Positions 17,896 through 42,260 of a stretch of 56,211 nucleotides of DNA are shown here, in pieces. This DNA comes from Actinoallomurus sp. (GTDB taxonomy: Bacteria > Actinomycetota > Actinomycetes > Streptosporangiales > Streptosporangiaceae). A program made the translations under genes and the position numbers. Numbering within the stretch: position 1 is the first letter of the stretch; the number at the start of each line of letters is the position of its first letter. The stretch spans positions 1-56,211 of the forward strand of contig JAOPYL010000313.1 in assembly GCA_025964625.1 (NCBI GenBank). The letters are read 5' to 3'. The notes below the pieces were generated by a model. It saw nothing but the letters and a program-made list of their open reading frames with translations, did not search any database and was not told the origin of the DNA.

Positions 17896-19422
17896 GTGTT
17901 GACCACCGAAGCCGGCGAGTTGCGTGACCTGCCCACCCTCACGCCGGGCCCGGCGGAGCTGGCCGATCTCGAGCTCCTGCTGAACGGCGCCTTCCATCCA
18001 CTCACCGGCTTCCTCGGCGCGGTCGACTCCGCGACCGTGGCGGCGGCCGGGCGGCTGGTGGACGGCACGCCCTGGCCCGCGCAGGTGACACTCACCGTGC
18101 CGGACGACCTCGTCAAGGAGGAGCGGCTCGTCCTGGTCGATCCGGAGGGTGTGCCGCTGGCCGTCCTTCAGGTCACCGAGACCTGGAAGGATCCAGCGCC
18201 CCCCGACGGCTTCGGCGACACCGACCCGCTGCGCCCCTCGTCGGCGCCCGGGTGGCGGATGGCCGGCACGGTCACGGCGCTGCGGACGCCCGAGCACGGC
18301 CCGTTCCGCGGGCTCCGCCGGCACCCGCAGGACGTAGGCGCCGAGCTCGCGGGCGTGACGACGCTCGCGATCGCCACCCGCACGCCGCTGCACCGGCGGC
18401 ACCTCGGGCAGCTTCGCCAGCTCTCCGAGAAGCTCGCCGCACGGGTCCTGGTCCTGCCGCTACTGGGCGACGGCGACGCCGACGCCGACGCGCTGGTACG
18501 CGCGCTGCTGACCGTACGCCGGGAGCTTCCGCCGGACACCCTCATCGTGCCGGTCCCGCTGGCCGAGCGGCCGGGCCGCGACCTGCTGCTCAGCGCGCAC
18601 GTCGCCGCGGCGTACGGCGCCACTCACCTGTTCGCGGCGGAGTTCACCGAGGCCGACGCCGAAATCGCGCCCCTGCGACTCGTCGCGCCGGAGCCGTGGG
18701 CGTACGACGAGAGCGTCGAGGTCTGGCGGCCCACCGCGAAGATCGACCCCGAGCATGTGCGCCCGGAGCCCACCGAGGCCGAGCTGGCCCGGCTGCTGGC
18801 CCACGGCGAGGAGATCCCCCAGTGGTTCACACCGCGCGCGGTGGCGGAGGAGCTGCGCCGGGCCAACCCGCCGCGGCACGAACGCGGCATCACGGTCTTC
18901 TTCACCGGGCTGTCCGGCTCGGGCAAGTCGACCATCGCGCGCGGGCTGGCGGACCTCCTCGTCGAGCGCGGCGGCCGGAAGGTCACGCTCCTCGACGGCG
19001 ACGTCGTACGGCGGCTGCTGTCGGCCGGCCTGACGTTCTCCCGTGACGACCGCGATCTCAACATCCGCCGGATCGGATACGTCGCCGCCGAGATCACCCG
19101 GCACGGCGGCGTGGCGATCTGCGCGCCCATCGCCCCCTACGCGCGGACCCGCGCGGAGGTCCGCCGCATGGTGGACGCCGCCGGCGACTTCGTGCTCGTC
19201 CACGTGGCCACGCCCCTGGAGGAGTGCGAGCGCCGGGACCGCAAGGGGCTGTACGCGAAGGCACGCGCCGGCCTCATCCCCGAGTTCACCGGCATCTCCG
19301 ATCCGTACGAGGTGCCCGAGGACGCGGAGCTGGTCCTGGACACCTCCGAGCTGAGCCCCGACGAGGCGGTCGCGCGGGTATTCGGACTGCTGGTCGCCGG
19401 CGGCTGGGTGCGCACCGAATAG
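17896..19422 (+). CDS. cysC: APS kinase with an N-terminal ATP-sulfurylase-like domain
   Basis: The fusion has 508 residues. The C-terminal APS kinase is complete: Walker A FTGLSGSGKST (336-346), LDGDVVRRLLS, FSRDDRDLNIRRIGYVA, and RKGLYAKARAG. It would phosphorylate APS to PAPS. The N-terminal part has the PUA-like and sulfurylase folds (LLNGAFHPLTGFLG, FRGLRRHPQDVGAEL). But the active-site QxRN signature reads ATRT (160-163), and the GRDHAG loop expected after GATH (241-244) reads LFAAEFTE. HRRH (166-169) is retained. The sulfurylase half is therefore probably not catalytic. I chose GTG 17896, with GGAG just upstream; TTG 17899 is an alternative with better spacing. CysD/CysN elsewhere in the window can supply APS. 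Confidence 0.9.
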   Translation: MLTTEAGELRDLPTLTPGPAELADLELLLNGAFHPLTGFLGAVDSATVAAAGRLVDGTPWPAQVTLTVPDDLVKEERLVLVDPEGVPLAVLQVTETWKDPAPPDGFGDTDPLRPSSAPGWRMAGTVTALRTPEHGPFRGLRRHPQDVGAELAGVTTLAIATRTPLHRRHLGQLRQLSEKLAARVLVLPLLGDGDADADALVRALLTVRRELPPDTLIVPVPLAERPGRDLLLSAHVAAAYGATHLFAAEFTEADAEIAPLRLVAPEPWAYDESVEVWRPTAKIDPEHVRPEPTEAELARLLAHGEEIPQWFTPRAVAEELRRANPPRHERGITVFFTGLSGSGKSTIARGLADLLVERGGRKVTLLDGDVVRRLLSAGLTFSRDDRDLNIRRIGYVAAEITRHGGVAICAPIAPYARTRAEVRRMVDAAGDFVLVHVATPLEECERRDRKGLYAKARAGLIPEFTGISDPYEVPEDAELVLDTSELSPDEAVARVFGLLVAGGWVRTE

Positions 19423-19462
19423 GCCCTGCTCTTGCGCTCTTCGCGGTGGCGCATACCCTGAG

Positions 19463-19494
19463 TGTCCTACTTAGCCTATTTCTTCGGTAGGACA
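19463..19494 (+). promoter_or_regulatory. Perfect 8-bp inverted repeat before the tauE-like gene
   Basis: TGTCCTAC (19463-19470) and GTAGGACA (19487-19494) are perfect inverted arms around a 16-bp AT-rich spacer. The right arm contains AGGA, the only plausible ribosome-binding site, 8 bases before the ATG at 19500. The element could be an operator over the promoter or an RNA hairpin that hides the ribosome-binding site. Part of the left side (CTACTTAG) resembles the region before the ssuA-like gene. Confidence 0.5.
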
Positions 19495-19499
19495 TACGC

Positions 19500-20543
19500 A
19501 TGCACTTTGATTACGTGATGTCAGTGGGGGCGTTCCTGGTCGCGGTCGTCGTCGGCCTGACCGGCATGGGCGGCGGCGCCCTGATGACCCCGATGCTCAC
19601 CGTCTTCTTCGGGGTCCCCCCGCTCACGGCCGTCTCGAGCGACCTGGTCGCCGCTGCCGTGATGAAGCCGGTGGGCAGCTTCGTGCACCTCCGGCGTGGC
19701 ACGGTCAATCTGCGGCTCGTCGGCTGGCTGTGCGCGGGCTCGGTGCCCGCCGCCTTCTGCGGGGTCCTGGCCGCCCGGGCACTGGGCCACGGCGAGCGGG
19801 TCCAGGACGTCATCGGCAAGGCCATGGGAGTGGCCCTGCTCATCGCGGCGGCCGGCCTCGCCGTGCGCGGCTATCTGGCGATGGTCGACCGGGCATCGCA
19901 ACGCGGGGAGCGGCGCACCGCCGCCCCTGGCGCACCCGCCGCGGAGAAGCCGGCAGCCGTTTCCGTTCGCCCCATCCCGACACTCCTGGTCGGCATGGTG
20001 GGGGGTCTGCTCGTCGGGATGACCTCGGTCGGCTCCGGCTCCCTGATCATCGTCGCGCTGCTCGCACTGTACCCCTCGCTGAAGGCCAACCAGCTCGTCG
20101 GCACGGACCTGTTGCAGGCGGTGCCGCTGGTCTGGTCGGCGGCGTTCGGCCACATCCTGTTCGGGGACTTCAAGCTCGAGGTCACCGCCGCACTGCTGGT
20201 CGGCTCCATCCCTGGCGTCTACCTCGGCTCCCTCATCTCCTCACGCGCACCGGGCGGGCTGGTCCGGCGGGCGCTGGCGTTCGTTCTGCTGGCCTCCGCT
20301 CTGAAGATGTTCGGCGTCGGCACCACCGCGATGGTGTGGACCCTGCTCGCCGTGGCGGTCGCCGCCACGGCGGTGTGGATGCTCCTCCGCAGGCGGCACG
20401 GCCTGCACCCCCTCGCCTTCCTCCACCATGACGCGCCCTCCGGCGTCTCCGGCCCGCAGGACCGCGGCTCCCCCGCGCCCGCTGACATCGACACGGAGCT
20501 CTCGAACGCCGGCAGGGCCCGCCGCCGTCCCCCGGCCGCGTAG
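19500..20543 (+). CDS. TauE/SafE family sulfite/anion exporter
   Basis: This 347-residue polytopic membrane protein has about eight transmembrane helices in two related halves. The repeat signatures are VVVGLTGMGGGALMTPML with TAVSSDLVAAAVMKPVGSF in the first half, and GGLLVGMTSVGSGSLII with QLVGTDLLQAVPLV in the second. TauE/SafE proteins export sulfite, sulfoacetate or related organic anions. A hydrophilic linker of about 35 residues joins the halves. The position behind the APS kinase fusion supports a sulfur anion as substrate. A Pro-rich cytoplasmic tail closes the protein. Expression may be controlled by the inverted repeat touching its start. Confidence 0.88.
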   Translation: MHFDYVMSVGAFLVAVVVGLTGMGGGALMTPMLTVFFGVPPLTAVSSDLVAAAVMKPVGSFVHLRRGTVNLRLVGWLCAGSVPAAFCGVLAARALGHGERVQDVIGKAMGVALLIAAAGLAVRGYLAMVDRASQRGERRTAAPGAPAAEKPAAVSVRPIPTLLVGMVGGLLVGMTSVGSGSLIIVALLALYPSLKANQLVGTDLLQAVPLVWSAAFGHILFGDFKLEVTAALLVGSIPGVYLGSLISSRAPGGLVRRALAFVLLASALKMFGVGTTAMVWTLLAVAVAATAVWMLLRRRHGLHPLAFLHHDAPSGVSGPQDRGSPAPADIDTELSNAGRARRRPPAA

Positions 20544-20629: not shown

Positions 20630-21487
20630 GTGATCGTAGGGGTCCTCATCGGAGTGCTCTGCGTCGCCGTGATTCTGGCCATCGGCGGCGTGGCCGTCGC
20701 CCGTCCGGGACTACTGCCCGACCCGGCGGCCTGGGTGAGTTCGCGGCGGTGGCTCGGCCTGGACCGGCTTCGGCTCGCCCGTACCCAGCTCGCCGAGTCA
20801 CTCGGATCGCTCGGCGCGTTCGTCATGCTGCTCGGCGGCGGCGTGCTGGTGGTAACGGCTGTCGGCGTCGTCTTCGGGTTCGGCGTCGCGACGCTGGAGC
20901 ACCCGGTGGACTGGTGGGCGTTCCACCTCGCCGACCGGCTGCGCGGCCGCGGCTGGGCACAGCTCATGGACATCGTCACGCGGATGGGCGACCTTCCTGA
21001 GACGCGCACCATCGGCGTGCTCTTCGCCGTGCTGCTGGCCTTCGCGGCCCGGCCGCGCCGGTGGTCACCTGCCGCCCTCATCCTCGGCGTCATCGTCGTG
21101 GAGAAATACCAGCAGTCGCTGCTCGCCACCATCGTCGGCCGCGGGCACCCGCCGACGACACTGGGCACCTACCCGTCGGGGGGTTGCGCCCGCCTGATCA
21201 GCATCTACGGCATCATCCTCTTCCTGGCCCTGGAGCTCACGCGCGCCGGCCGCCGTACCCGTGCCGTGGCGTGGACGCTTCTGTGGGCCGCGGCCTTCGC
21301 CGAGGGCTACAGCCGGTGGTACCTCAACAAGCACTGGCTCACCGACGTGCTCGGCGGCTGGTTCTACGGCGGGGCGCTGCTCGCGGTGGCCGTGTTCGCC
21401 GGCCGTGCTCTGACGGACCGGAACCCACATACCGCCATGCGATCCGAAGCGGGCAGCGAATTGACCCAATCGATTTCCCGTATTTGA
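20630..21487 (+). CDS. PAP2-superfamily membrane phosphatase
   Basis: This 285-residue membrane protein has about six helices and the three phosphatase motifs in altered form: EKYQQSLLATIVGRGHPP (motif 1, Lys and Arg kept), YPSGG at 181-185 (motif 2, usually PSGH), and SRWYLNKHWLTDVLGG (motif 3, Arg, His and Asp kept). PAP2 enzymes dephosphorylate lipid phosphates such as phosphatidate or undecaprenyl pyrophosphate at the outer membrane face. Its place just before the exopolysaccharide block would fit recycling of the lipid carrier. The histidine of PSGH is replaced by Gly, so activity is uncertain. The start is GTG 20630; no strong ribosome-binding site is visible. Confidence 0.8.
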   Translation: MIVGVLIGVLCVAVILAIGGVAVARPGLLPDPAAWVSSRRWLGLDRLRLARTQLAESLGSLGAFVMLLGGGVLVVTAVGVVFGFGVATLEHPVDWWAFHLADRLRGRGWAQLMDIVTRMGDLPETRTIGVLFAVLLAFAARPRRWSPAALILGVIVVEKYQQSLLATIVGRGHPPTTLGTYPSGGCARLISIYGIILFLALELTRAGRRTRAVAWTLLWAAAFAEGYSRWYLNKHWLTDVLGGWFYGGALLAVAVFAGRALTDRNPHTAMRSEAGSELTQSISRI

Positions 21488-21593: not shown

Positions 21594-22868
21594 ATGCGCC
21601 GACGCGTGCTCAGTGTCGCGGCAGCCGCTGCGGCCGCCGTCGCCGGGGGGGCCACCATACCCGCGGCCGACGCCGACATCCAGCAGAACGCAATTGTTTC
21701 TGAAAACCCGGTCGACTGGACCCCGCACGTCCTTGACGGCACGGTGCGCGCGATCGCCGTCGTCGGCAAAAAGGTTGTCGTCGCCGGAAATTTCGACCAG
21801 GTCAAGGAGGCGGGCGCCAACAAGCCGACGATCTCCCGCCACAACATCTTCTCCTTCGACCTCGGCACCGGGAAGATCGACACCAAGTTCGTCCCCAAGG
21901 TCGACGGCACGGTGTACGCCCTGCAGCCGGGCGACGCGAGCAGCGTGTACGCCGGCGGCTCGTTCACCCAGACCAACGGGGCCACGCTCGGCTCGCTGAC
22001 ACGGCTGAGCGTCGCCGACGGCACTGCCGTGAAGGCCTTTGACGCGCGCATCGGCCACGGGCCGGTCTTCGCGATGATCCGGCGCGGCAGCCGCGTCTAC
22101 ATCGGCGGTGAGTTCACCACGATCGCCGGTAAGGCACACTCTCCGCTCGCCCGGGTGGACGCCACCACGGGCGCCGCCGACTCGGGTCTGGACCTCTCGG
22201 TCACCGACCCGCGGCAGGGCGCGCTCAAGGTCTTCAAGATGGCGGTCGACCCGGCCGACTCGCGACTGGTCATCGACGGCACGTTCACCAAGGTCGCCGG
22301 TCAGCGCCGCTACCAGATCGCGATGATCGACACCGCGTCGAAGCCGGCCAGGCTCACCACCTGGGCCACCGAGCGGTACGCCACACCGTGCAACCGAGAC
22401 GCCTTCGACACCTACATGCGCGGCATCGACTTCGCCCCCGACGGGTCCTACTTCGTGGTCGTCACCACCGGCGGCCCGTTCGGGAACACCCAGCTGTGCG
22501 ACTCCGCGGCACGCTGGGAGACGAACAGGACCGGCACCGGCCAGAACCCGACCTGGGTCAACTGGACCGGCGGCGACACCCTCCTGGCCGTGTCGGTCAC
22601 CGGCGCGGCCGTCTACGTCGGCGGTCACCAGCGCTGGCAGGACAACCCGTACGGGAGTGACAGTCCCGGCCCCGGCGCCGTCTCACGGCCCGGCATCGCG
22701 GCGCTGAACCCGGTCGGCGGCAAGGCCCTGTCATGGAACCCGACCCGCACCCGCGGGCACGGCGTCGAGACCCTGGTCGCCACCCCGACCGGCCTGCTGG
22801 TCGGCAGCGACACCGACGAGCTCGGCCACGAATACCATGCCAAGCTCGGAATGTTCCCGCTTTCGTAG
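21594..22868 (+). CDS. Secreted beta-propeller protein (delta-60/DUF5122-like repeats)
   Basis: This 424-residue protein has a Sec signal peptide: MRRR, then an Ala-rich hydrophobic stretch with probable cleavage after ADA near residue 28. The mature part is a chain of about 50-60-residue repeats. These combine VRAIAVVGKKVVVAGNF, VYALQPGDASSVYAGGSF, VFAMIRRGSRVYIGGEF, and later AVYVGGHQRW, each followed by a LDxxTG-like turn. Such repeats fold into a beta-propeller. ATG 21594 has GGGAG 7 bases upstream. No catalytic residues are obvious; binding to the polysaccharide made by neighbouring genes is a guess. The upstream gap holds an 8-bp inverted repeat (21488-21495 with 21529-21536). Confidence 0.8.
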   Translation: MRRRVLSVAAAAAAAVAGGATIPAADADIQQNAIVSENPVDWTPHVLDGTVRAIAVVGKKVVVAGNFDQVKEAGANKPTISRHNIFSFDLGTGKIDTKFVPKVDGTVYALQPGDASSVYAGGSFTQTNGATLGSLTRLSVADGTAVKAFDARIGHGPVFAMIRRGSRVYIGGEFTTIAGKAHSPLARVDATTGAADSGLDLSVTDPRQGALKVFKMAVDPADSRLVIDGTFTKVAGQRRYQIAMIDTASKPARLTTWATERYATPCNRDAFDTYMRGIDFAPDGSYFVVVTTGGPFGNTQLCDSAARWETNRTGTGQNPTWVNWTGGDTLLAVSVTGAAVYVGGHQRWQDNPYGSDSPGPGAVSRPGIAALNPVGGKALSWNPTRTRGHGVETLVATPTGLLVGSDTDELGHEYHAKLGMFPLS

Positions 22869-23118: not shown

Positions 23119-24483
23119 GTGGGCACTACAAGAGTCGTCCCGGCACGGGTGGCGGCACGGCCGGCGGCATGGCGGCCGCGGCCGGCGGCATGGCGGCCGC
23201 GGCCAGGCTGGCCGCTCAGCGCGATCTTCCTCGGCTTCCCCGTCTGGTGGCTGCTCGGCCTGGGCTTGCTGATCTTCCTCGTCATGACCGTGCCGATGGC
23301 CGTCTACCTGTACAGACACCGGTCCCGGTTGCTCGCTCCGCGCGGCTTCGGCGCGTGGCTGCTGTTCCTCGTCTGGGTATCGCTCGGGGCGGGCGTGCTG
23401 GTGGCGAACGCACCCGGTGCGGTGCCCGGCGGCAGCCTCGGCCGCCTGCTCCCGTACGGCTGGCGCCTCGCCTGGTACATCGCCGCGACCGTCGTCCTGC
23501 TCTACATCGCCAACCTCAGTGACGAGGAACTGCCGGCGGACCGCGTCGGACGGCTGCTCGGCTACATGTTCGTCGTCACCACTGCGGGTGGCCTGCTCGG
23601 CACGTTCGTCCCGCACCTGCAGCCGACCTCCCCGCTGGAGATGCTGCTGCGCACGCACAACCCCTTCCTGCTCGATGCCATCCATCCCAAGACGGCCGAG
23701 ATCGCGACGATCCTCGGGTACGAGCAGTCGCGTCCGATGGCGCCTTTCGCCTACGCCAACACGTGGGGCGCCGCCTACGCGTTCTTCCTGCCCTTCTTCG
23801 CCATCACCTGGCTGGTGCGCGTCGACCGCAGGCGGCGGATCCTCGGCATCCTGATCCTGCTCGCCTCCCTCTGGCCGGTCGTCTACTCCCTCGACCGGGG
23901 ACTGTGGATCGCACTCGGCGTGACAGGTTGCTTCGCCGGTCTCAAGGCCGTCGCAGAGGGCGGCGCGCGGGCGCTGCGCCTGACGATCAGCGGCATCGCT
24001 GTGGGCGCTCTCGTTTTCATGGTCTCGCCCCTGCCCGGCATGATCCAGGCGCGCCTGGAGCGTCCCCACAGCAACAACCGGCGCACCCTGCTCGCCGAGG
24101 AGACCACGCGCAGCGCGCTGACCGGCTCACCGATCGTCGGCTTCGGGACGACGCGCAAGGTGCAGGGCAACCTGACCTCGCTCGCGGGCGGTGACCGGCC
24201 CGGCTGCAAGGCCTGCGGCGCGCCCCCGCTCGGCACCCAGGGCCACCTCTGGCTGCTGCTCTTCGCGAACGGCCTGGTCGGCACCGTCGCCTTCGCCGCG
24301 TTCTTCGCCGTACGGTTCGTCTCTCACCGGCGTGAGCGCTCCGCCTATGCCGTGGCCGGGTGCTGTGTCCTGCTGGCGTTCGGACTGTTCCTCTTCGTCT
24401 ACGACCTGGTGGAGGTCCCGCTGTACACGGTGATGATCGCGGTTGCGCTGATGTGGCGTGCCCGGCGCGAGGCCCTCGCGTGA
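23119..24483 (+). CDS. Wzy/O-antigen ligase-like polysaccharide polymerase
   Basis: This 454-residue integral membrane protein has about ten to eleven helices. A large extracytoplasmic loop lies in the last third (ERPHSNNRRTLLAEETTRSALT to GAPPLGTQGHL). The segment GTQGHLWLLLFANGLVGTVAFAAFF resembles the conserved end of O-antigen ligase/polymerase proteins. It would join lipid-linked repeat units into a chain outside the membrane. The N-terminus is uncertain: the GTG at 23119 gives an Arg/Pro-rich leader encoded partly by a perfect 21-bp tandem repeat, and a GTG at 23149 is an alternative. The last codon overlaps the next gene's GTG. It opens an operon of five or six plus-strand genes. Confidence 0.75.
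   Translation: MGTTRVVPARVAARPAAWRPRPAAWRPRPGWPLSAIFLGFPVWWLLGLGLLIFLVMTVPMAVYLYRHRSRLLAPRGFGAWLLFLVWVSLGAGVLVANAPGAVPGGSLGRLLPYGWRLAWYIAATVVLLYIANLSDEELPADRVGRLLGYMFVVTTAGGLLGTFVPHLQPTSPLEMLLRTHNPFLLDAIHPKTAEIATILGYEQSRPMAPFAYANTWGAAYAFFLPFFAITWLVRVDRRRRILGILILLASLWPVVYSLDRGLWIALGVTGCFAGLKAVAEGGARALRLTISGIAVGALVFMVSPLPGMIQARLERPHSNNRRTLLAEETTRSALTGSPIVGFGTTRKVQGNLTSLAGGDRPGCKACGAPPLGTQGHLWLLLFANGLVGTVAFAAFFAVRFVSHRRERSAYAVAGCCVLLAFGLFLFVYDLVEVPLYTVMIAVALMWRARREALA
23160..23201 (+). repeat. Perfect 21-bp tandem duplication
   Basis: Two identical 21-bp units (23160-23180 and 23181-23201) lie at the 5' end of the polymerase frame and encode AAWRPRP twice. Because 21 is a multiple of three, the frame is kept. 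It is probably a slippage product. Confidence 0.9.
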
Positions 24484-25616
24484 AGGCGTGGGTGGAGGCG
24501 GTGGCCGGGCTGTGGCCCGACGCGGAGGTCGGTCCCGGCCGCGACCCGCGAGCGGTACGCGAGTTCGCCTTCCTGCCCAGCGCCGACCGGCCACGGCTGC
24601 TCCTGCCCGCCGGACTGCCCGCCGCAGCGGCGGCCGCGCTGCGCCGCTACAGCCACGACCTGGGCACGCGGCAGCGTGCGACCCGGGTGGTGGCGGCGAC
24701 GGCGGTACGTGCCGGGCTCGCCGACCGGGCGCTGCGCGACCGACTCCACGCCAGCGGCGACGGCGACGGCGAGTCGATCGAAGACCGCCTCACCGAGCTG
24801 CTGGGAAGACCGGTCGTGGTCAGCGTCAGCCTCGGCCCGGCGCGGGCCAACCGGAAGCCGATCCTGCACGCGCTCACGCCGCGAGGCGAGCCCGTGGCGT
24901 TCGTGAAGGTCGGCGACACGGCGATGGCCCGCGACCTGATCGAGGGCGAGGCGGCGGCCCTCGGGCACCTCGCCCGGCGATCCCTCCGCGCACTACGCGT
25001 TCCCGAGATCCTCCATCACGGTGACTGGCGCGGTCTCAGCCTGCTGGTCCTGTCGCCCCTGCGGACCGGCGCGCTGTCGTTCCGTCCCCGGCGCACCGCG
25101 CCGGTGGCGGCGATGCGGGAGCTGACCGGCGACACGCGCCGCGGTCCGCTCGGGGCGAGCGCGTTCTGGGCCCGCTTTCAGGACGTTCCGCTCGACGATC
25201 CCGAGCAGCGGAAGCGGCTCACCGACGCCGTCGAACGCATCGGCGTGGCGTACGGCGCGGACGAACTGGAGTTCGGCGCCTGGCACGGCGACTGGACCCC
25301 ATGGAACATGGCCTGGCACGGTGGCCGCGTCCAGCTCTGGGATTGGGAGCGGTTCGACCCGGATGTTCCCGCCGGCCTGGATCTGCTGCACTACCGGCTA
25401 CAGGCCGGTGGCGGCTACGGCACCTGGCCGGACGCCGCGCTCGTCACCCCCGCCGGTCCGTCCGGCCGGACCGCCGCGATGACGGTCGAGCTCTATCTGC
25501 TGGAGATGAGCCGTCGTTATCTCACCGCCGCGCAGGGCGCTCTGGGCGAGCCGCTGCGGCCGCAGGCGGAGAGCCTGCTCGAACTGCTGTACGCCAACGC
25601 CGGGAGGACGGCTTGA
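24480..25616 (+). CDS. APH/choline-kinase-like phosphotransferase
   Basis: This 378-residue protein has the C-terminal catalytic signature of the aminoglycoside-phosphotransferase/choline-kinase fold: WHGDWTPWNMAW near residue 268 (HGDxxxxN) and LWDWERFDPDVPAGLDLLHY near 288. A Lys in VAFVKVGDTAMARDLIEGEAAAL would bind ATP, and the Glu about 13 residues later would pair with it. The substrate is unknown; in this operon a sugar, alditol or other glycan substituent could be phosphorylated. GTG 24480 overlaps the polymerase stop (GTGA); the longer frame from 24360 would lie inside the polymerase gene. It ends overlapping the sulfotransferase start. Confidence 0.72.
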   Translation: MKAWVEAVAGLWPDAEVGPGRDPRAVREFAFLPSADRPRLLLPAGLPAAAAAALRRYSHDLGTRQRATRVVAATAVRAGLADRALRDRLHASGDGDGESIEDRLTELLGRPVVVSVSLGPARANRKPILHALTPRGEPVAFVKVGDTAMARDLIEGEAAALGHLARRSLRALRVPEILHHGDWRGLSLLVLSPLRTGALSFRPRRTAPVAAMRELTGDTRRGPLGASAFWARFQDVPLDDPEQRKRLTDAVERIGVAYGADELEFGAWHGDWTPWNMAWHGGRVQLWDWERFDPDVPAGLDLLHYRLQAGGGYGTWPDAALVTPAGPSGRTAAMTVELYLLEMSRRYLTAAQGALGEPLRPQAESLLELLYANAGRTA

Positions 25617-27861: not shown

Positions 27862-27865
27862 CCCC

Positions 27866-35153: not shown

Positions 35154-35307
35154 TGGGAACAATCTCCGAGATCGTTTACTTGAGGGCCCGGGACACCTCA
35201 CGATATCCGGCCGAATGATGGGCCGCTTTGTCAATACCCCGAAGCCGTACGCACGGTAATCGCTAAGCTCGCTACCAGTCATGAGACTCAAAAGGAGCGG
35301 ACCTCCC

Positions 35308-36015
35308 ATGGAAATGCGCGTACGCCGTGCCTGGTCGTCCGCCGCACTCGCAGCCGTGTTCCTCCTGCTGCCGGGCTGGCGCGCCATACCCGCCCGGGCG
35401 GTGAGCGTCGACCCGGATCTCGTCGCGGAGTCCGTCACCGAGGACGGCTACTACGTCGACTCCAACGCGTCCTGTCTCAGGTCCGACAGCGATCTCGACA
35501 AGCTGCGAGCGGCTCTTCGGCAGGCCGGTCGGGCGGGCGTCGTCGTGCTCCCCGCCGGCACCGCCGCCGGCCCGGTGCTCCACAAGCTGCTGCAGTCGCC
35601 GAACCGCGACGCCACATACGTGGTACTCAGCGGCACCACACTGCGTGCCGCCTCCACCAGCCTCTCCATGTCCGCGGTGAACAAGCTGGTCGCGAGGGCC
35701 ACGAAGACGGGCGCCCCCGAGTCGCAGGTGCTGACCTTCCTCGACCTGATGAACCCCGGGCACAGCCGTAAGAGCGGCGGGGCGCGGAAGGGCGGCGACC
35801 TTCCCCCGGCCCAGCCGTCGTCCGATGCGCGGCCCGGCACGGTGAACTCCGCGCCGGTCGCGGCCAGGAAGAACGACTCCGGCGGCGGTAACGGCCTGCT
35901 CTACGGCGTCGGCGGAGGCATCGTGGTCGCCGCGCTGGCGGCCGTGAGCGGCGTGCTGTGGCGGCGTAAGCGGGCCGCGTCCACACCGGATGGCAGCGCA
36001 CCGGGGATCGAGTGA
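35308..36015 (+). CDS. Membrane-anchored extracellular protein, Rv1476-like
   Basis: This protein of about 235 residues has a signal peptide (RRAWSSAALAAVFLLLPGWRAIPARA). A compact alpha/beta domain follows (DLDKLRAALRQAGRAGVVVLPAGTA, DATYVVLSGTTLRAAS). After a Gly/Pro-rich linker come one transmembrane helix (NGLLYGVGGGIVVAALAAVSGVLW) and a short basic tail. The layout and the alpha/beta domain recall the mycobacterial Rv1476 family, whose function is not known to me. I chose ATG 35308 because AAAGGAG lies 10 bases upstream; ATG 35281 would put that site inside the gene. It is divergent from the sulfotransferase. Confidence 0.6.
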   Translation: MEMRVRRAWSSAALAAVFLLLPGWRAIPARAVSVDPDLVAESVTEDGYYVDSNASCLRSDSDLDKLRAALRQAGRAGVVVLPAGTAAGPVLHKLLQSPNRDATYVVLSGTTLRAASTSLSMSAVNKLVARATKTGAPESQVLTFLDLMNPGHSRKSGGARKGGDLPPAQPSSDARPGTVNSAPVAARKNDSGGGNGLLYGVGGGIVVAALAAVSGVLWRRKRAASTPDGSAPGIE

Positions 36016-36639: not shown

Positions 36640-37629
36640 TCACGCCACTTCGGCGAGGAGGGGCTTCCACCATTCCGGGTGAGCCGTGTACCAGGCGATG
36701 ACCTCGGCCAAGCCGTCCTCGAACGCGATGCGCGGCGCGTGGCCGAGGGCGCGCAGCTTGGCATCGGCGAGCGAGTAGCGCCGGTCATGCCCCGGGCGGT
36801 CGGGGACGTACTCCACCGCGGACCAGTCGGCGCCCAGCGCCTTGAGCAGCTGCCCGGTGAGCTCGCGGTTCGTCAGCTCGGCGGTGCCCGCGACGTGGTA
36901 GACCTCGCCCGGTTCGCCGTGTTCGGCCACGAGCCGGATCCCCCGGCAGTGGTCGTCGACGTGGATCCAGTCGCGCACGTTACCGCCGTCGCCGTACAAC
37001 GGCAGCGGCCGGCCGGTCAGCAGGTTCGTGACGAACCGCGGGATGACCTTCTCGGGATACTGGTACGGCCCGTAGTTGTTGCCGCAGCGGGTGATGCAGA
37101 CCGGCAGCCCGTGCGTGCGGGCGTACGCCAGAGCGATCAGGTCGCCGCCCGCTTTCGAGGCCGCGTACGGGGAGTTCGGCGACAGCGGGGCGTCCTCCGC
37201 CCACGAGCCCGTCTCGATACTGCCGTAGACCTCATCGGTGGAGACCTGCACGACCTTGGGCACCCGTGCGTCAAGGCAGGCGCGCAACAGCATCTCGGTG
37301 CCCAGCACGTTGGTGCGGATGAACTCGGCGGCGCAGTCGATGGAGGCGTCGACGTGCGACTCCGCGGCGAAGTGGACCACCAGGTCGTGGCCGGGCACGA
37401 CGCGGGCCAGCAGGCCGGCGTCGCAGATGTCGCCGTGCACGAACCCGGCGTCCGCGCCTTCCAGATTGGCGCGGTTGCCGGCATAGGTGAGCCGGTCGAG
37501 CACGGTCACGGCGACGCCGGGCCAGGCCGCGTTCATCGTCCGCACGAAGTGCGAGCCGATGAATCCGGCGCCGCCGGTGACCAGTACGCGGGAGCCCTCG
37601 CGGATGGGGCCGTCCGCGCGTGCCGTCAG
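36640..37629 (-). CDS. rmlB: dTDP-glucose 4,6-dehydratase, probable CTG start
   Basis: RmlB converts dTDP-glucose to dTDP-4-keto-6-deoxyglucose, precursor of rhamnose and other deoxysugars. No ATG, GTG or TTG lies upstream of the NAD-binding loop in this frame. The first standard codon (GTG 37545) would remove VTGGAGFIGSHF. A CTG at 37629 overlaps the cysN stop as CTGA and has GGAG 5 bases before it, giving 329 residues, the normal length. With that start the loop is VTGGAGFIG (17-25), the active site T131-D132-E133, and Y155xxxK159. The last part is GGNVRDWIHVDDHCRGI to the C-terminus. rmlA, rmlC and rmlD are not in the window. Confidence 0.85.
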   Translation of the reverse strand: MTARADGPIREGSRVLVTGGAGFIGSHFVRTMNAAWPGVAVTVLDRLTYAGNRANLEGADAGFVHGDICDAGLLARVVPGHDLVVHFAAESHVDASIDCAAEFIRTNVLGTEMLLRACLDARVPKVVQVSTDEVYGSIETGSWAEDAPLSPNSPYAASKAGGDLIALAYARTHGLPVCITRCGNNYGPYQYPEKVIPRFVTNLLTGRPLPLYGDGGNVRDWIHVDDHCRGIRLVAEHGEPGEVYHVAGTAELTNRELTGQLLKALGADWSAVEYVPDRPGHDRRYSLADAKLRALGHAPRIAFEDGLAEVIAWYTAHPEWWKPLLAEVA

Positions 37630-38888
37630 CGGCTCTCCATGATCATTCCTGCTCCCACAGTGGCGTTCGTGGCCTCGTCGATGAGGATGAACCCGCCCGT
37701 GGAGCGGTTCCGGCGGTAGTCGTCGGCGAACAGCGGCTGGGTGACCCGGAGCGTGACCCGGCCGATCTCGTTGAGCTCCAGCCGGTCGGCGTCCTCGTGG
37801 CGGTGCAGCGTGTTGACGTCGAGCCGGTAGTGCAGGTCCTTCACCATCGTCCGCGCGGTCCGCGTGGTGTGCTTGATGATCAGTTTGCCGCGCGGAGTGA
37901 GTGTCCGCTCGTCGGACATCCAGCAGACCATCGCGTCGATGTCCTGGGTCACCTGCGGCCGGTTGTGCGGCCGGCAGATCATGTCGCCCCGGGAGATGTC
38001 GATGTCGTCCTCCAGCAGGAGCGTCACCGACATCGGCGCGTACGCCTCGTCGACCGGGCCGTCCGCGGTGTCGATCCGCTTGATCCGCGTGGTCAGCCCG
38101 GACGGCAGGTGCATGACCTCGTCACGGGGCTTGAGCACACCGCCCGCGACCTGGCCCGCGTAGCCGCGGTAGTCGTGCAGTTCGGGGTCGGTCGACTTGT
38201 GGGGCCGGATGACGTACTGCACCGGGAACCGCACGTCGATGAGGTTGCGGTCGGAGGCGATGTGGAGGTTCTCCAGGTGGTGCAGCAGAGACGGCCCGTC
38301 GTACCAGGGCATGTTCGCCGACCGGTCGACCACGTTGTCGCCGTGCAGCGCCGACACGGGGATGAAGGTCAGGTCGCCGACGGACAACTTGGCGGCGAAC
38401 GCGGTGAACTCCTCCTTGATCCGCTCGAAAACCCCCTGGTCGTAGTCGACGAGGTCCATCTTGTTGACCGCGAGCACGAGATGCGGCACCCGCAGCAGCG
38501 TGGTCAGGAACGCGTGCCGCCGCGACTGTTCCAGCAGCCCCTTGCGCGCGTCGATCAGGATGATCGCCAGGTCGGCCGTTGACGCGCCGGTCACCATGTT
38601 CCGGGTGTACTGAATGTGCCCCGGAGTATCGGCGATGATGAACTTGCGCTTTGGCGTGGCGAAGTAGCGATACGCGACGTCGATCGTGATGCCCTGCTCG
38701 CGCTCGGCGCGCAGGCCGTCGGTCAGTAGAGCCAGGTTGGTGTACTCCTCACCGCGATCCCGGCTGGTGCGCTCGACGGCCTCCATCTGGTCTTCGAAGA
38801 TCGACTTGGAGTCGTACAGCAACCGCCCGATGAGCGTCGACTTGCCGTCGTCCACCGAGCCCGCGGTGGCGAGCCTCAGGATGTCCAT
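37626..38888 (-). CDS. cysN: ATP sulfurylase GTPase subunit
   Basis: CysN is the GTPase of the heterodimeric ATP sulfurylase that makes APS from sulfate and ATP with CysD. The 420-residue protein has GSVDDGKST (G1, 10-18), DTPGH (G3), and NKMD (G4), followed by the two translation-factor beta-barrels. It ends with the family sequence GGFILIDEATNATVGAGMI. No APS-kinase domain is fused to it, unlike mycobacterial CysNC; the kinase lies at 17896-19422. ATG 38888 is preceded by GAGGA. The stop overlaps the CTG start of rmlB by 4 nt. A 163-bp spacer separates it from cysD. Confidence 0.95.
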   Translation of the reverse strand: MDILRLATAGSVDDGKSTLIGRLLYDSKSIFEDQMEAVERTSRDRGEEYTNLALLTDGLRAEREQGITIDVAYRYFATPKRKFIIADTPGHIQYTRNMVTGASTADLAIILIDARKGLLEQSRRHAFLTTLLRVPHLVLAVNKMDLVDYDQGVFERIKEEFTAFAAKLSVGDLTFIPVSALHGDNVVDRSANMPWYDGPSLLHHLENLHIASDRNLIDVRFPVQYVIRPHKSTDPELHDYRGYAGQVAGGVLKPRDEVMHLPSGLTTRIKRIDTADGPVDEAYAPMSVTLLLEDDIDISRGDMICRPHNRPQVTQDIDAMVCWMSDERTLTPRGKLIIKHTTRTARTMVKDLHYRLDVNTLHRHEDADRLELNEIGRVTLRVTQPLFADDYRRNRSTGGFILIDEATNATVGAGMIMESR

Positions 38889-39051: not shown

Positions 39052-39981
39052 CTAGAAGTAGCCCTCCCGCTTGCGGTCCTCCATCGCGGCCTCACTGGTC
39101 CGGTCGTCGGCGCGGGTCTGGCCGCGCTCGGTGACGCGGGTGGCCGCGATCTCGCCGATCACCTCGTCGAGGGTCACCGCGGTCGACTCGACGGCGCCGG
39201 TGCAGCTCATGTCGCCGACGGTCCGGTAGCGGACCATGGTCTCGAAAGCCGGCTCGTCCTCACCCCGGTTGGAGTACGGGCTGTCGGCGAGCAGCATCCC
39301 GTCGCGCTCGAACACCGTGCGGCTGTGCGCGAAGTAGATCGAGGGGATCTCCAGCTTCTCGCGCTTCAGGTAGTCCCAGATGTCGAGCTCGGTCCAGTTG
39401 GACAGTGGGAAGACGCGGATGTGCTCCCCTTGGCGGATCCGGGTGTTGTAGAGGCTCCACAGCTCCGGCCGCTGACTCTTCGGGTCCCACTGGCCGAAGT
39501 CGTCGCGGAAGGAGAAGACCCGCTCCTTCGCGCGCGCCTTCTCCTCGTCACGGCGGGCGCCGCCGAAGGCCGCGTCGTACCGGTTCTCCTCGATCGCGTC
39601 CAGCAGAGTGGTGGTCTGCAGCCGGTTCCGGCTGGCCCGCCGTCCGGTCTCCTCGACGACGCGGCCCTTGTCGATGGACTCCTGGACCGAGGCGACGACG
39701 AGACGGACACCGATCTCGGAGACACGGCGGTCGCGGTATTCGATGACCTCGGGAAAGTTGTGCCCGGTGTCGACGTGCATGACCGGAAACGGGATCCGGC
39801 CCGGCCAGAACGCCTTCTCCGCGAGACGCACCATCACGATGCTGTCCTTGCCGCCGGAGAACAGCAGGACCGGCCGTTCGAACTCTGCCGCCACCTCCCG
39901 GATGATGTGGATCGACTCTGCTTCCAGCACGTCGAGCTGAGACGTACGGTAGTCACATGCGTCAGCGGTGCTGCGCTGCAT
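39052..39981 (-). CDS. cysD: ATP sulfurylase adenylyltransferase subunit
   Basis: CysD forms APS from sulfate and ATP, driven by GTP hydrolysis in CysN. The 309-residue protein has the pyrophosphate-loop motif LLFSGGKDSIVM (40-51), HVDTGHNFPEVIEYRDRRV, and AFGGARRDEEKARAKERVFSFRD. It ends WDPKSQRPELW...HIRVFPLSNWTELDIW, MVRYRTVGDMSCTGAVES and KREGYF, all diagnostic of CysD rather than PAPS reductase. ATG 39981 has GGGAG 9 bases upstream. It follows cysQ by 24 bp, which places PAPS supply and PAP recycling in one transcript. Confidence 0.96.
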   Translation of the reverse strand: MQRSTADACDYRTSQLDVLEAESIHIIREVAAEFERPVLLFSGGKDSIVMVRLAEKAFWPGRIPFPVMHVDTGHNFPEVIEYRDRRVSEIGVRLVVASVQESIDKGRVVEETGRRASRNRLQTTTLLDAIEENRYDAAFGGARRDEEKARAKERVFSFRDDFGQWDPKSQRPELWSLYNTRIRQGEHIRVFPLSNWTELDIWDYLKREKLEIPSIYFAHSRTVFERDGMLLADSPYSNRGEDEPAFETMVRYRTVGDMSCTGAVESTAVTLDEVIGEIAATRVTERGQTRADDRTSEAAMEDRKREGYF

Positions 39982-40005
39982 AAGGAAACGCTCCCGGGTC
40001 GGCTC

Positions 40006-40773
40006 TTACAGGACGGCCCGGATGCCGGCGAGCAGCGACGACGCCAGTTCCGGGTGGCAGACCAGAATATCGGGCAGGTTGGTGTCCTCCTGGTTGTAGG
40101 TCAGGGGTGACCCGTCGATCCGGGAGGCATGGGCACCCGCCGCGTGCGCGACCGCCACCGGAGCGGCCGAGTCCCATTCGTGCTGGCCGCCCGCGTGCAC
40201 ATAGGCATCGACGTCGCCCACCAGCACCGCCGCGACCTTGGCGCCGGCCGATCCGATCTGCACCAGCTCGACGTCCGCATGGAGGTGATCGGCGAGCCGC
40301 CGCGCGAACTCCGGCGGGCGGCTGCGGCTCACGGCGACGCGGATGTGCCCCGCATCGAGTTGTGGCAGCGGCGGAGGCTCGGCGGTGGAGAGAGTGCGGC
40401 CCTTGGCCGGCAGGGCGACGGCACCCGCCCGAAGCTCTCCCGCTGAGCCTTCGGCCCGGTGCCAGAGGGCGACGTGCACGGCCCAGTCGCCGCGTCCCTC
40501 CTCGGCGTACTCTCGTGTGCCGTCGAGTGGGTCGACGATCCACACGCGCTCGGCGGCGAGCCGGGAGAGATCGTCCTTACCCTCCTCGCTGAGCACCGCG
40601 TCGCCTGGCCGCTGTCGCGCGAGCGCGTCCATCAGGTAGAGGTGCGACTCTTGGTCGCCGGCGTCGCGCAGTGCCTTGGTGTCGGTGAAACCGCGGTCGG
40701 AGCGGAGGTGCAGCAGCAGGGCGCCCGCCTCGGCTGCCAGGTCCCGGGCGAGGGCATGGTCGTCGTGCGTCAC
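40006..40773 (-). CDS. cysQ: 3'(2'),5'-bisphosphate nucleotidase (PAP phosphatase)
   Basis: CysQ hydrolyses PAP, the by-product of sulfotransferases, to AMP and so prevents product inhibition. The 255-residue protein has the inositol-monophosphatase-fold motifs: LSEEGKDD (61-68), WIVDPLDGTREY (78-89) and HEWDSAAPVAVAHAAGAHASRIDG, all binding metal and phosphate. GTG 40773 has GAGGA 6 bases upstream and lies 14 bp after the glycosylphosphotransferase stop. The close link with cysDN and a glycan-initiating enzyme supports active sulfotransfer in this pathway. A role in inositol phosphate turnover is less likely. Confidence 0.92.
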   Translation of the reverse strand: MTHDDHALARDLAAEAGALLLHLRSDRGFTDTKALRDAGDQESHLYLMDALARQRPGDAVLSEEGKDDLSRLAAERVWIVDPLDGTREYAEEGRGDWAVHVALWHRAEGSAGELRAGAVALPAKGRTLSTAEPPPLPQLDAGHIRVAVSRSRPPEFARRLADHLHADVELVQIGSAGAKVAAVLVGDVDAYVHAGGQHEWDSAAPVAVAHAAGAHASRIDGSPLTYNQEDTNLPDILVCHPELASSLLAGIRAVL

Positions 40774-40787
40774 GTACTTCCTCTACG

Positions 40788-42260
40788 TCAGTAGGCCCCG
40801 GAGCCGCGGGCCACCGCGGACCAGGTCTTCCACAGGATCTGCAGGTCGAGGGTCAAGGACCAGTTCTCGACATAACGCAGATCGAGACGGACCGATTCCT
40901 CCCAGGACAGATCCGCCCGGCCGCTCACCTGCCAGAGGCCGGTCATGCCCGGCCGCACGACGAGACGGCGGCGCACGTCGTCGCCGTACTGGACGACCTC
41001 TTCGGGCAGCGGAGGACGCGGCCCGACCAGCGACATGTCGCCCCGCAGTACGTTGATGAGCTGGGGCAGCTCGTCGAGGGAGTAGCGGCGCAGCCAGGCG
41101 CCCGCGCGAGTCACCCGGGGATCGTCCCGGATCTTGAACAGGACGCCGTCGTGGTCGTTGTACCGCGTCAGGCCGGCCTTACGCTCTTCCGCGTCGGCCA
41201 CCATCGTGCGGAACTTCAGCACGGTGAACTCGCGGCCGTCGCGGCCCACCCGGACCTGGCGGAACAGCGCGGGCCCGTTGCTGCCGGCGCGGACGGCGAT
41301 CGCGATGGCCGCCAGCATGGGCGCGAGGACGATCAGTACGAGGCCGGCGCCGGCGCGGTCGAAGACGCTCTTCACGATCCGGCGGCCGCCGGACAGCTCC
41401 GGGTGCTCCACGTGCAGCAGCGGCAGGCCCGCGACCGGACGTATCGACGTGCGGGGACCGGCCACCTCCATCAGCGCGGGCGCTACGACGAGGTCGACGT
41501 CATCCTTCTCCAGCCGCCAGGCGAGCCGGCGCAGCGCCACGCCGTCCAGCTCGGGACAGGCCAGCACGGCGACGGTGCACGCCCGGGTCGCCTCGACGAC
41601 GCCGCCGACCCCGGCGAAATCGCCGGCGACCGGCACGCCCTCGACCTCGGCTACCGCGTCGTCACCGATGGCGAGCATCCGCGGCAGGCAGGCCGCCACG
41701 ATGTCCATGCCGTGGTAGCGCTCACGGCGCAGCTGCCGGATCAGGTCGGCGACGGCGGCCCGGTGCCCGACCGCGACGACCCGGCGCATGTACCGGCCGG
41801 TGCTCCGGCCCCGGTGCAGCCGCTTGCGCAGCTGGTAGCGGCCGTACAGGCCGAACGTCGTCGCCAGGGGCAGCGCCGCGATGACGTACCCGCGGGCCAC
41901 CTCGATCTTCGTCGCGTACGCGAGGATGGCCACCGTCGCGGTCAGTGTGAAGCCGGCCTGCAGGATCCGGCGGAACTCCTCCGGCCCCACGCCGAACAGC
42001 CGCTGCTCGTACGCCCGGGCCAGCCCGAGCACCCCGATCCACAGGAAGGGGAGGGCGAGGCTGAGCGCGATGTACGGTGCGTTCCACGGGCTGCCGACGG
42101 ACGGGAAACGGATCCCGAAGGCGAAGAGCCCGGCGATCAGGGCGGCCGCGAAGTCGGCGCAGAGGGCCTGCCGGGCGTAGTCGGACGTCCAGGCCGCGAC
42201 CTGCTCCCGACTGCCCTCCACGGCCCGAGCCTTCGGCCGCACCTTGTCCACGGCCGCCAT
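40788..42260 (-). CDS. Exopolysaccharide polyprenyl-phosphate sugar phosphotransferase (WbaP/CpsE-like)
   Basis: This 490-residue membrane enzyme starts repeat-unit synthesis by moving a sugar-1-phosphate to undecaprenyl phosphate. Four N-terminal helices (about 30-150) precede a CoA-binding-like domain (RRVVAVGHRAAVADLIRQL). A helix hairpin and the catalytic bacterial sugar transferase domain come next: PALFRQVRVGRDGREFTVLKFRTM, WLRRYSLDELPQLINVLRGDMSLVGPRPPLP and VRPGMTGLWQVSGR. I start at ATG 42260 because AAGGGG lies 6 bases upstream; the frame to 42386 has no coding character. It heads the operon with cysQ-cysD-cysN-rmlB. Confidence 0.92.
   Translation of the reverse strand: MAAVDKVRPKARAVEGSREQVAAWTSDYARQALCADFAAALIAGLFAFGIRFPSVGSPWNAPYIALSLALPFLWIGVLGLARAYEQRLFGVGPEEFRRILQAGFTLTATVAILAYATKIEVARGYVIAALPLATTFGLYGRYQLRKRLHRGRSTGRYMRRVVAVGHRAAVADLIRQLRRERYHGMDIVAACLPRMLAIGDDAVAEVEGVPVAGDFAGVGGVVEATRACTVAVLACPELDGVALRRLAWRLEKDDVDLVVAPALMEVAGPRTSIRPVAGLPLLHVEHPELSGGRRIVKSVFDRAGAGLVLIVLAPMLAAIAIAVRAGSNGPALFRQVRVGRDGREFTVLKFRTMVADAEERKAGLTRYNDHDGVLFKIRDDPRVTRAGAWLRRYSLDELPQLINVLRGDMSLVGPRPPLPEEVVQYGDDVRRRLVVRPGMTGLWQVSGRADLSWEESVRLDLRYVENWSLTLDLQILWKTWSAVARGSGAY

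Follow-up and report, generated by a model that had tools for sequence, protein, structure and literature searches.

Bacterial sulfated polysaccharides have been called exclusive to, or uncommon outside, cyanobacteria (PMC13390465, PMC8205485), and they have been reported in marine bacteria too (PMC11641403). In June 2026, Tezuka & Ohnishi described the wps-1 cluster of Actinoplanes missouriensis (AMIS_7280-7380 plus AMIS_7390), in which single deletions of the counterparts of the sulfotransferase (sulf1), kinase, Wzx, Wzy and Wzz genes studied here, and of the APS kinase (APSK) gene, resulted in abnormal sporangia, with few spores released (PMC13390465). Squashed sporangia were seen whether WpsH (the sulf1 counterpart), Wzx, Wzy or the entire cluster was deleted, and deletion of the APS kinase gene changed the sporangia and left macroscopic growth on the media used unchanged (PMC13390465). 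By the authors' own statement, sulfation of the wps-1 glycan still awaits proof, and they suggest that the single-gene phenotypes could also stem from stalled undecaprenyl-linked intermediates (PMC13390465); these phenotypes therefore do not prove sulfation.

Here we analyse a locus within a stretch of 56,211 nucleotides from Actinoallomurus sp. (contig JAOPYL010000313.1; hereafter the window), which is a further member of this very recently described wps-1 kind and very probably makes a sulfated, Wzx/Wzy-assembled surface polysaccharide. The window holds Wzx, Wzy (by position), Wzz (by weak matches), two sulfotransferases of two families, a GH26-like hydrolase (just above its cut-off) and a GT2 glycosyltransferase, all of which it has in common with wps-1, as it does a kinase-like protein, a methyltransferase and a SAT/APS kinase gene, the last lying in the locus here and adjacent to wps-1. 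Orthology between the two rests on the published A. missouriensis gene order and on relatives' loci; one of these, Dactylosporangium L097, has the order APSK-Wzz-Wzy-kinase-sulf-Wzx-methyltransferase-GH26-GT26-sulf-GT2, which is that published for A. missouriensis except for WpsD (PMC13390465).

Gene content of the locus

The genes mfd and pth flank a polysaccharide locus of the Wzx/Wzy type. It encodes two sulfotransferases and a GH26-like hydrolase, along with an APS kinase, CysD, CysN and a phosphatase resembling CysQ (Table 1). Names for mfd, eno, pth, rplY, prs, glmU and the penicillin-binding proteins were assigned by eye rather than by a family search. All the genes named in the original prediction, which was made from this DNA by a model without database searches, are present at their coordinates; CysD, CysN and RmlB score above curated NCBIfam cut-offs. 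Its list was incomplete, missing the APH-like kinase at 24480-25616 and the methyltransferase at 17132-17836.

Table 1 Features of the locus, with positions in the window. Counts of related loci refer to the best 80 of 422.
Feature	Position	Strand	Evidence
SAM-dependent methyltransferase	17132..17836	+	Pfam Methyltransf_23 41.1 bits
Two-domain APS kinase, ATP-sulfurylase-like N-terminal domain	17896..19422	+	Pfam APS kinase PF01583 193.6 bits
TauE/SafE anion permease	19500..20543	+	Pfam TauE 142 bits
PAP2-superfamily membrane phosphatase	20630..21487	+	Pfam PAP2 39 bits; 6/80 related loci
Beta-propeller protein, secreted-looking (DUF5122)	21594..22868	+	58/80 related loci
Wzy-like polymerase	23119..24483	+	79/80 related loci; WpsJ position in published cluster
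FN3K/APH-fold kinase (WpsI counterpart)	24480..25616	+	79/80 related loci; predicted fold
Sulfotransferase 1 (sulf1), heparan-sulfate-type fold (WpsH counterpart)	25613..26455	+	Pfam 36.1 bits (cut-off 22)
Wzz-like co-polymerase A, kinase-like C-terminus without Walker A	26443..27861	+	Weak matches, motif search
GT2 glycosyltransferase (WpsA counterpart)	27842..28777	+	Pfam 80.9 bits; 63/80 related loci
GH26-like glycoside hydrolase (WpsE counterpart)	28774..29901	-	Pfam GH26 21.1 bits (cut-off 20.2; weak alone)
Wzx flippase	29908..31431	-	Pfam Polysacc_synt 44.6 bits
Wzz/BY-kinase-like co-polymerase B, without Walker A	31428..33089	-	Weak matches, motif search
PssD/Alg14-type glycosyltransferase subunit	33201..33665	+	Alg14 Pfam 49.6 bits; NF041549 116.7 bits (cut-off 110)
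PssE/Alg13-type glycosyltransferase subunit	33662..34165	+	GT28_C Pfam 37.3 bits; NCBIfam matches (C-terminal half WelK-like) below cut-off
Sulfotransferase 2 (sulf2, WpsB counterpart)	34191..35153	-	Pfam Sulfotransfer_3 59.1 bits (cut-off 27); 46/80 related loci
Small protein, secreted, membrane-anchored-looking	35281..36015	+	No Pfam match; 16/80 related loci
RmlB dTDP-glucose 4,6-dehydratase	36640..37623	-	TIGR01181 395 bits (cut-off 365)
CysN, ATP sulfurylase GTPase subunit, no fused APS kinase	37626..38888	-	TIGR02034 576.8 bits (cut-off 336)
CysD, ATP sulfurylase catalytic subunit	39052..39981	-	TIGR02039 455 bits (cut-off 397)
CysQ-like inositol-phosphatase-family enzyme	40006..40773	-	Pfam Inositol_P 116 bits; TIGR01331 91.9 bits (below cut-off 228.8)
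Polyprenyl-phosphate sugar-1-phosphate transferase, WbaP type, initiating	40788..42386	-	Bac_transf 227.9 bits; TIGR03025 410 bits (cut-off 295.6)

With the starts chosen here, wzy, the kinase gene, sulf1, wzzA and gt2 overlap by 4, 4, 13 and 20 bases and thus look like one operon. The run wbaP-cysQ-cysD-cysN-rmlB had been proposed as an operon, and these genes indeed lie on one strand with gaps of 14, 24 and 163 bases; its last member, rmlB, did not hold up as part of the core, since none of the stretches compared from 11 relatives contains it. The reading frame of rmlB stays open as far as the cysN stop codon and offers no ATG, GTG or TTG ahead of the nucleotide-binding motif, so its start is unclear. 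The start of sulf2 was picked by eye within a longer frame reaching 35438.

Wzy matched no Pfam or NCBIfam family and was named from its position and conservation, and both Wzz-like proteins gave weak profile matches only. When the GH26-like hydrolase of the window is aligned with 37 homologues, E146 and E251 are kept in 90% or more of the sequences, the window's included; by eye, the protein has a signal-like N-terminal and a membrane-anchor-like C-terminal segment. No GT26 (WecG/TagA) glycosyltransferase was matched among the 20 locus proteins, where PssD/PssE are found instead; we take GT26, which is present in L097, as a variable accessory that does not define a wps-1-type locus. The methyltransferase, possibly a glycan or small-molecule methylase, adjoins the two-domain APS kinase gene in six relatives (G002, G004-G007 and G033), and the TauE/SafE permease, possibly a sulfate or sulfite transporter, does so in five of the six congener loci, the contig of the sixth (G001) stopping short of that end. 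The PAP2 phosphatase may possibly recycle undecaprenyl-PP. The small protein beside sulf2 is kept in the congeners G002, G005 and G006.

Sulfate activation genes

The original prediction recognized the APS kinase and overlooked an ATP-sulfurylase-like domain on the same gene. While the kinase domain is intact, with the P-loop GLSGSGKST, the sulfurylase motifs, QXRN and GRDH, have been lost. The QTRN of 2gks and 1m8p is ATRT in the window, and the Q and N are missing, with no GRDH after YGATH/YGVTH, in all 19 distinct two-domain sequences (20 rows were compared, two of them one contig). These losses suggest that the sulfurylase half is inactive, in which case CysDN should make the APS; they also led us to reject this domain as a second ATP sulfurylase.

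No CysD or APS kinase gene other than those of the locus was found in the genome, whereas cysH and cysI were located on another contig, so that CysDN probably serves cysteine synthesis as well as sulfation. The proposal that the locus has its own PAPS supply needs amending accordingly, CysDN being probably shared. CysH passes two NCBIfam models named PAPS reductase (NF002537, TIGR00434) and hence the APS kinase too may serve cysteine; how specific that kinase is to sulfation turns on which of APS and PAPS is the CysH substrate. Furthermore, Sulfotransfer_3 matches on two other contigs of the genome mean that PAPS has other possible users. For the phosphatase, CysQ is the best named NCBIfam match, but the score falls under the equivalog cut-off, and we therefore call it CysQ-like, a probable PAP phosphatase of the inositol-phosphatase family, where the original prediction had simply CysQ.

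Sulfotransferases and the FN3K-like kinase

In a PDB comparison of the sulf1 AF2 model (pLDDT 89.6), the matches ranked 2-21 are 3-O- or N-sulfotransferases of heparan sulfate, with query TM of 0.68-0.74, and the SULT-type, tyrosylprotein and other enzymes that fill the remaining places among the 50 rows listed reach at most 0.46. The kinase gene product, which has no Pfam or NCBIfam match, gave an AF2 model (pLDDT 92.4) whose top Foldseek match is human FN3K (query TM 0.51), and H269-G270-D271, N276 and D288 are invariant across 31 sequences. The model indicates a fructosamine-3-kinase/APH-like fold, and the kinase is a near-constant partner of sulf1. It sits between Wzy and the heparan-type sulfotransferase in the window, as in the wps-1-type locus.

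Conservation in related genomes

Related loci were counted among the best 80 of 422 with flanks of at most 10 kb, so that counts of more distant genes (CysDNQ, wbaP, APS kinase) are low by construction. Wzy, the kinase and sulf1 are contiguous on one strand in 73 of these 80 loci, from many actinomycete genera, and sulf1 lies within 400 bases of the kinase, on the same strand, in 76 of the 79 that hold both, Wzy being next. Some contigs appear both here and among the relatives compared gene by gene (G005 = L034, G002 = L035, G033 = L076, G037 = L090). Among 200 genomes of the order, homologues of sulf1 and of the kinase occur in 175 and 181; at the thresholds used the two are apart in 16, sulf1 alone in 5 and the kinase alone in 11. 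The resulting table (170/11/5/14, Fisher) ignores genome relatedness, and five genomes without sulf1 were deduced from absence among the matches listed. The locus content and order thus recur in relatives, which indicates that the genes were not gathered by chance, and the neighbourhood comparison proposed at the outset came out positive.

This comparison also separates core from accessory genes. Neither rmlB nor sulf2 had a match in the six congeners' loci, which rules both out as core genes, and sulf2 alone as query for related loci gave no confirmed relative. A sulfated Wzx/Wzy-type polysaccharide, as first proposed, is still the best reading. A second WbaP gene of the genome (G000:C114) was considered as marking a second sulfated locus and rejected, as matches to the 36 window genes in the 40 kb analysed there were limited to wbaP itself and to rmlB- and glmU-like genes. 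The six congener loci come from seven congeners, since WbaP found no match in G003 (87% complete).

Of the 124 genomes with both sulf1 and CysD among the matches listed, 108 have the two within 35 kb (median 8.3 kb) and the remaining 16 have them on different contigs; where the sulf1 list gave two rows for a genome, as it did for seven, the nearest was used. CysDNQ adjoin wbaP in each of the 11 relatives compared, with a contig end truncating the CysN gene in one. These data bear on whether CysDN and CysQ are ordinary sulfur assimilation genes that happen to neighbour a polysaccharide locus in a gene-dense region. Cysteine synthesis requires APS or PAPS, the only CysD found is here, and the APS kinase would serve cysteine if CysH, encoded elsewhere with CysI, is what its PAPS reductase-named models suggest. 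However, CysDNQ stay beside wbaP and close to sulf1 across the order, even in G001, G004 and G007, whose polysaccharide genes are down to about 30-40% identity, and the A. missouriensis APS kinase deletion altered sporangia and not macroscopic growth on the media used (PMC13390465), so we consider mere neighbourhood unlikely. The best explanation includes a probable dual use of CysDN.

Related loci are also found in Micromonospora, Nocardioides, Blastococcus and Modestobacter, genera not known for sporangia of the A. missouriensis kind. It is therefore doubtful that the polysaccharide is a spore-case matrix specific to sporangia in every carrier, as the wps-1 phenotype of A. missouriensis might suggest (PMC13390465). 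Less probable still is an unsulfated Wzx/Wzy product, the sulfotransferases having a small molecule, peptide, quinone or lipid as substrate and being co-located through a common envelope or developmental stage: no chemistry exists for the wps-1 locus type (PMC13390465) and in mycobacteria PAPS is used for sulfolipid synthesis, but sulf1 is tightly linked to the kinase and Wzy, its model is far closer to polysaccharide sulfotransferases than to SULTs, and the WpsH deletion resembles those of Wzx, Wzy or the whole cluster (PMC13390465).

Proposed pathway and significance

For the sulfated polysaccharide, we infer from the computed gene content, order, conservation, folds and motifs that the glycan is the sulfate acceptor, and likewise the order of steps, the sugars and the kinase substrate. 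WbaP would place the first sugar phosphate on undecaprenyl phosphate, and GT2 and the PssD/PssE pair would extend the repeat. CysDN would make APS, which the two-domain kinase would convert to PAPS, its sulfurylase half having only a structural or regulatory role. The repeat unit would be sulfated in the cytoplasm by sulf1, of the heparan-sulfate type, and in this strain also by sulf2, with the FN3K-like kinase adding phosphate to a pathway sugar or protein and the CysQ-like enzyme removing PAP. Wzx would then flip the unit, Wzy polymerise it and the two Wzz proteins set chain length, and the membrane-anchored GH26 may trim the product. A bolder and rather improbable extension is that throughout Streptosporangiales a single ancient locus keeps the sole ATP sulfurylase and APS kinase genes because one glycosaminoglycan-like surface polymer consumes most of the PAPS. 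This polymer would be sulfated by the heparan-sulfate-type sulfotransferase and phosphorylated by the Pfam-less FN3K-like kinase, and the pseudo-sulfurylase domain would channel APS made by CysDN to the APS kinase.

If the locus makes a sulfated polysaccharide, the capacity to do so is widespread in one order of these soil bacteria and occurs here and there in other actinomycete orders. The PAPS analysis would also directly explain a finding described as unexpected by the A. missouriensis authors, since the wps-1-adjacent gene would be the APS kinase supplying the sulfotransferases. In the open-access literature searched, the step marked by the near-constant kinase is without an assigned substrate. 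Among the matches listed from that literature, there was nothing on point for Actinoallomurus polysaccharides, and for sulfated exopolysaccharides in actinomycetes mainly natural-product papers; the earlier view that such polymers are little described in actinomycetes was overtaken by the wps-1 paper (PMC13390465). Judged by these open-access searches only, the present analysis adds the Wzy-kinase-sulf1 contiguity, the sulf1-CysD linkage, the lost sulfurylase motifs, the sole CysD and APS kinase, the kinase partner, and the absence of rmlB and sulf2 from the loci of six congeners.

Comparison with known systems

The best solved-structure match to the APS kinase gene product is the two-domain enzyme of Thiobacillus denitrificans (PDB 3cr8, E 7.8e-103), in which, by the title of its paper, ATP sulfurylase activity is absent. 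The losses differ in detail: in 3cr8 the N and the second H of the motifs are both replaced by Q, whereas in the window Q becomes A and N becomes T.

Unlike wps-1 as published, the window has PssD/PssE in place of GT26, a second Wzz and WbaP-CysQ-CysD-CysN(-RmlB) within the locus; the main text of the wps-1 paper has no word starting with "cys" (PMC13390465). The Synechan xss cluster of Synechocystis 6803 resembles the window in its Wzx/Wzy/PCP system and two sulfotransferases of distinct subfamilies, but has eight glycosyltransferases and its own regulators and lies on a megaplasmid; sulfate was measured there, and neither "PAPS" nor "cysD" occurs in that paper (PMC8205485). The sulfated capsule locus of Vibrio sp. 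KMM 8419, in a Gram-negative and with a solved structure, differs in its ABC-transporter capsule system and in carrying second copies of cysNDC, and yet, like the window, it brings PAPS genes, there cysNDC, together with sulfotransferases in one polysaccharide locus (PMC11641403).

Conservation of the polysaccharide locus

The window is an entire contig of a 5.84 Mb genome (95% complete), and the polysaccharide locus lies in it between mfd and pth–rplY–prs–glmU. All the genes that the original prediction had named were found in the locus, and the gene set is real. Given the starts chosen, stop and start codons overlap in the operon wzy–kinase–sulf1–wzzA–gt2 on the left side of the locus. The genes wbaP–cysQ–cysD–cysN–rmlB, predicted to form one operon, do run along the minus strand with small gaps, but rmlB lacks a usual start codon, with no ATG, GTG or TTG upstream of its nucleotide-binding motif. 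The second WbaP-type locus of the genome (contig C114) carries an rmlB 67% identical to that of the window. Both Wzz-like co-polymerases have a tyrosine-kinase-like C-terminal part, and a motif search found no Walker A motif in either, which suggests that length control in the locus may not use autophosphorylation.

Coordinates of features in the window
Feature	Position	Remark
ORF	13-384	+ strand, contig start; putatively similar to the zinc-finger C-terminus of an IS605-type OrfB/TnpB protein
ABC transporter	4093-6810	with NMT1-like binding protein; between eno and two penicillin-binding-protein genes (flanks by eye); candidate, possibly for sulfonate uptake
mfd	13357-16947	left flank of locus, named by eye
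Two-domain APS kinase	17896-19422	
DUF5122 beta-propeller protein	21594-22868	
Wzy	23119-24483	
Kinase	24480-25616	
sulf1	25613-26455	
wzzA	26443-27861	
GT2	27842-28777	
wzzB	31428-33089	
sulf2	34191-35153	
orf35281	35281-36015	
rmlB	36640-37623	
CysN	37626-38888	
CysD	39052-39981	
CysQ-like	40006-40773	
wbaP	40788-42386	
pth–rplY–prs–glmU	42536-46480	right flank of locus, named by eye

We compared 36 window genes with the loci of 11 relatives, none of which had a match to rmlB. A close WbaP match was found in 6/7 congeners, and in all six the wbaP–cysQ–cysD–cysN block adjoins pth and sulf1 is also present. In three congeners (G001, G004 and G007) the polysaccharide genes are diverged (identity 40–41% for sulf1 and 28–30% for Wzy) whereas CysD and CysN are >90% identical, and thus the block keeps to the locus while the glycan genes change. 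DUF5122 beta-propeller proteins such as that of the window (another is at 6572-9475, minus strand, of related locus L016) occur in 58 of the best 80 of 422 related loci; a longer form is also present in congeners, and its G006 copy contains a PKD domain. Three congeners share a further gene family (4959-6164 of related locus L017) between orf35281 and a PPOX gene; the two members scanned are epoxide-hydrolase-like, and no counterpart was seen in the window.

Across 200 genomes of the order, the sulf1 profile had matches in 175 (own genome counted), the kinase in 181 and CysD in 199, with a single CysD match in 180 as read from the table. At the thresholds used, sulf1 occurred without the kinase in 5 genomes and the kinase without sulf1 in 11. 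Of the 124 genomes in which both genes were listed, 108 have sulf1 ≤35 kb from CysD (median 8.3 kb), 16 have the two on different contigs and none has them far apart on one contig. Under stricter criteria, 28 of 158 genomes from the class gave a match, 16 of them outside the family. Named relatives include Actinomadura, Thermomonospora, Planomonospora, Nonomuraea, Micromonospora, Dactylosporangium, Catellatospora, Nocardioides, Blastococcus, Modestobacter and Geodermatophilus. In the best 80 of 422 loci, with a flank of at most 10 kb, we found Wzy in 79, the kinase in 79, a wzzB-type gene in 74, Wzx in 72, GT2 in 63, and sulf2 and GH26 in 46 each; window genes at the margin of the locus or beyond it were rarer (abcA 1, tauE 5, glmU 0). 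Wzy–kinase–sulf1 is contiguous on one strand in 73 of these 80. The neighbourhood comparison proposed in the original prediction thus bears out the linkage of these genes and of sulf1 with CysD. Of the two sulfotransferases, sulf2 is patchy, without a match in the loci of 6 congeners and at 51–58% identity in the more distant genomes G033, G034 and G037.

Supply of PAPS

In a genome search CysD, an APS kinase and an ATP-sulfurylase-like domain each turned up once, the latter two in one protein. Where the Aquifex and Penicillium enzymes have QTRN, this protein has ATRT in the alignments, and GRDH, the motif looked for after YGATH in the sulfurylase domain, was not found. Both sulfurylase motifs are lost in 19/19 distinct two-domain proteins, window included, whereas all 19 retain the P-loop of the kinase, as GLSGSGKST or a close variant; identity to the window protein is 42–83% in the sulfurylase half and 66–91% in the kinase half. 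This pattern suggests that the protein probably makes PAPS from APS, and that CysDN is probably needed to supply the APS.

Should the CysH of this genome (contig C325) act on APS, it would share CysDN and leave the APS kinase to sulfation, whereas a CysH acting on PAPS would share both. CysH has the CC...CxxC pattern that marks the iron-sulfur, APS-using type. It scores better against TIGR02055 APS reductase (221 bits, cut-off 235) than against TIGR02057 PAPS reductase (176, cut-off 254), but falls below both cut-offs, and passes NF002537 (256, cut-off 154) and TIGR00434 (189, cut-off 165), both named phosphoadenylyl-sulfate reductase. Sulfotransfer_3 proteins matched on two further contigs may be PAPS users too. 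The locus was predicted to have its own PAPS supply; CysD and the APS kinase are indeed within it, but they are the only copies found in the genome, and CysDN is probably shared with cysteine synthesis.

Structural models of sulf1 and the kinase

For the model of sulf1 (pLDDT 89.6) the top match was a bacterial sulfotransferase, followed at ranks 2–21 by heparan sulfate 3-O- and N-sulfotransferases, with far lower scores for SULT and tyrosylprotein enzymes among the 50 matches listed. Searches with the kinase gave nothing in Pfam (E 0.001) or NCBIfam (E 0.01), and two relatives likewise gave nothing in Pfam at E 0.1. The structural model of the kinase (pLDDT 92.4) resembles human fructosamine-3-kinase (query TM 0.51) as well as aminoglycoside phosphotransferases, and 31 sequences all share K143, E157, H269-G270-D271, N276 and D288. 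These features make it probable that the kinase is active; its substrate, as a first guess, would be sugar-like or an amine.

Comparison with known sulfated systems

That the locus makes a sulfated Wzx/Wzy-type surface polysaccharide, the central inference of the original prediction, is likely right. Synechan (PMC8205485) has two sulfotransferases in one locus, as in the window, and the Vibrio KMM 8419 capsule (PMC11641403) has cysNDC and sulfotransferases in one locus; for these sulfate was measured or the structure solved. Further sulfated systems are reported from Cobetia (PMC11766843) and Pontiella (PMC7356697), and the word part 'sulf' is absent from the accessible text of PMC12691653.

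The closest published counterpart is wps-1 of Actinoplanes missouriensis, for which PMC13390465 gives WpsA (GT2), WpsB (sulfotransferase), WpsC (GT26), WpsD (DUF4262), WpsE (GH26), WpsF (methyltransferase), WpsG (Wzx), WpsH (heparan-type sulfotransferase), WpsI (kinase-like), WpsJ (Wzy) and WpsK (Wzz), adjoined by the SAT/APS kinase AMIS_7390. In locus L097 of Dactylosporangium fulvum the wps-1 gene order recurs except for WpsD, and the GT26 gene lies on the minus strand. In A. missouriensis, sporangia were squashed when wpsH, I, G, J, K, A or C was deleted, while wpsB deletion left sporangia normal in appearance with ~tenfold fewer spores released, a milder phenotype that fits the patchy presence of sulf2. 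Deletion of AMIS_7390 caused severe defects, termed unexpected by the authors; reading its window counterpart as an APS kinase would explain them. According to the authors, sulfation of the wps-1 product still awaits proof, and stalled lipid-linked intermediates are another possible cause of the phenotypes (PMC13390465). Sulfated surface polysaccharides had been called little described in actinomycetes of this type, a view overtaken by this June 2026 report: the window locus belongs to the kind already described there, and what is new here is the breadth of its conservation, the PAPS logic and a kinase without an assigned role.
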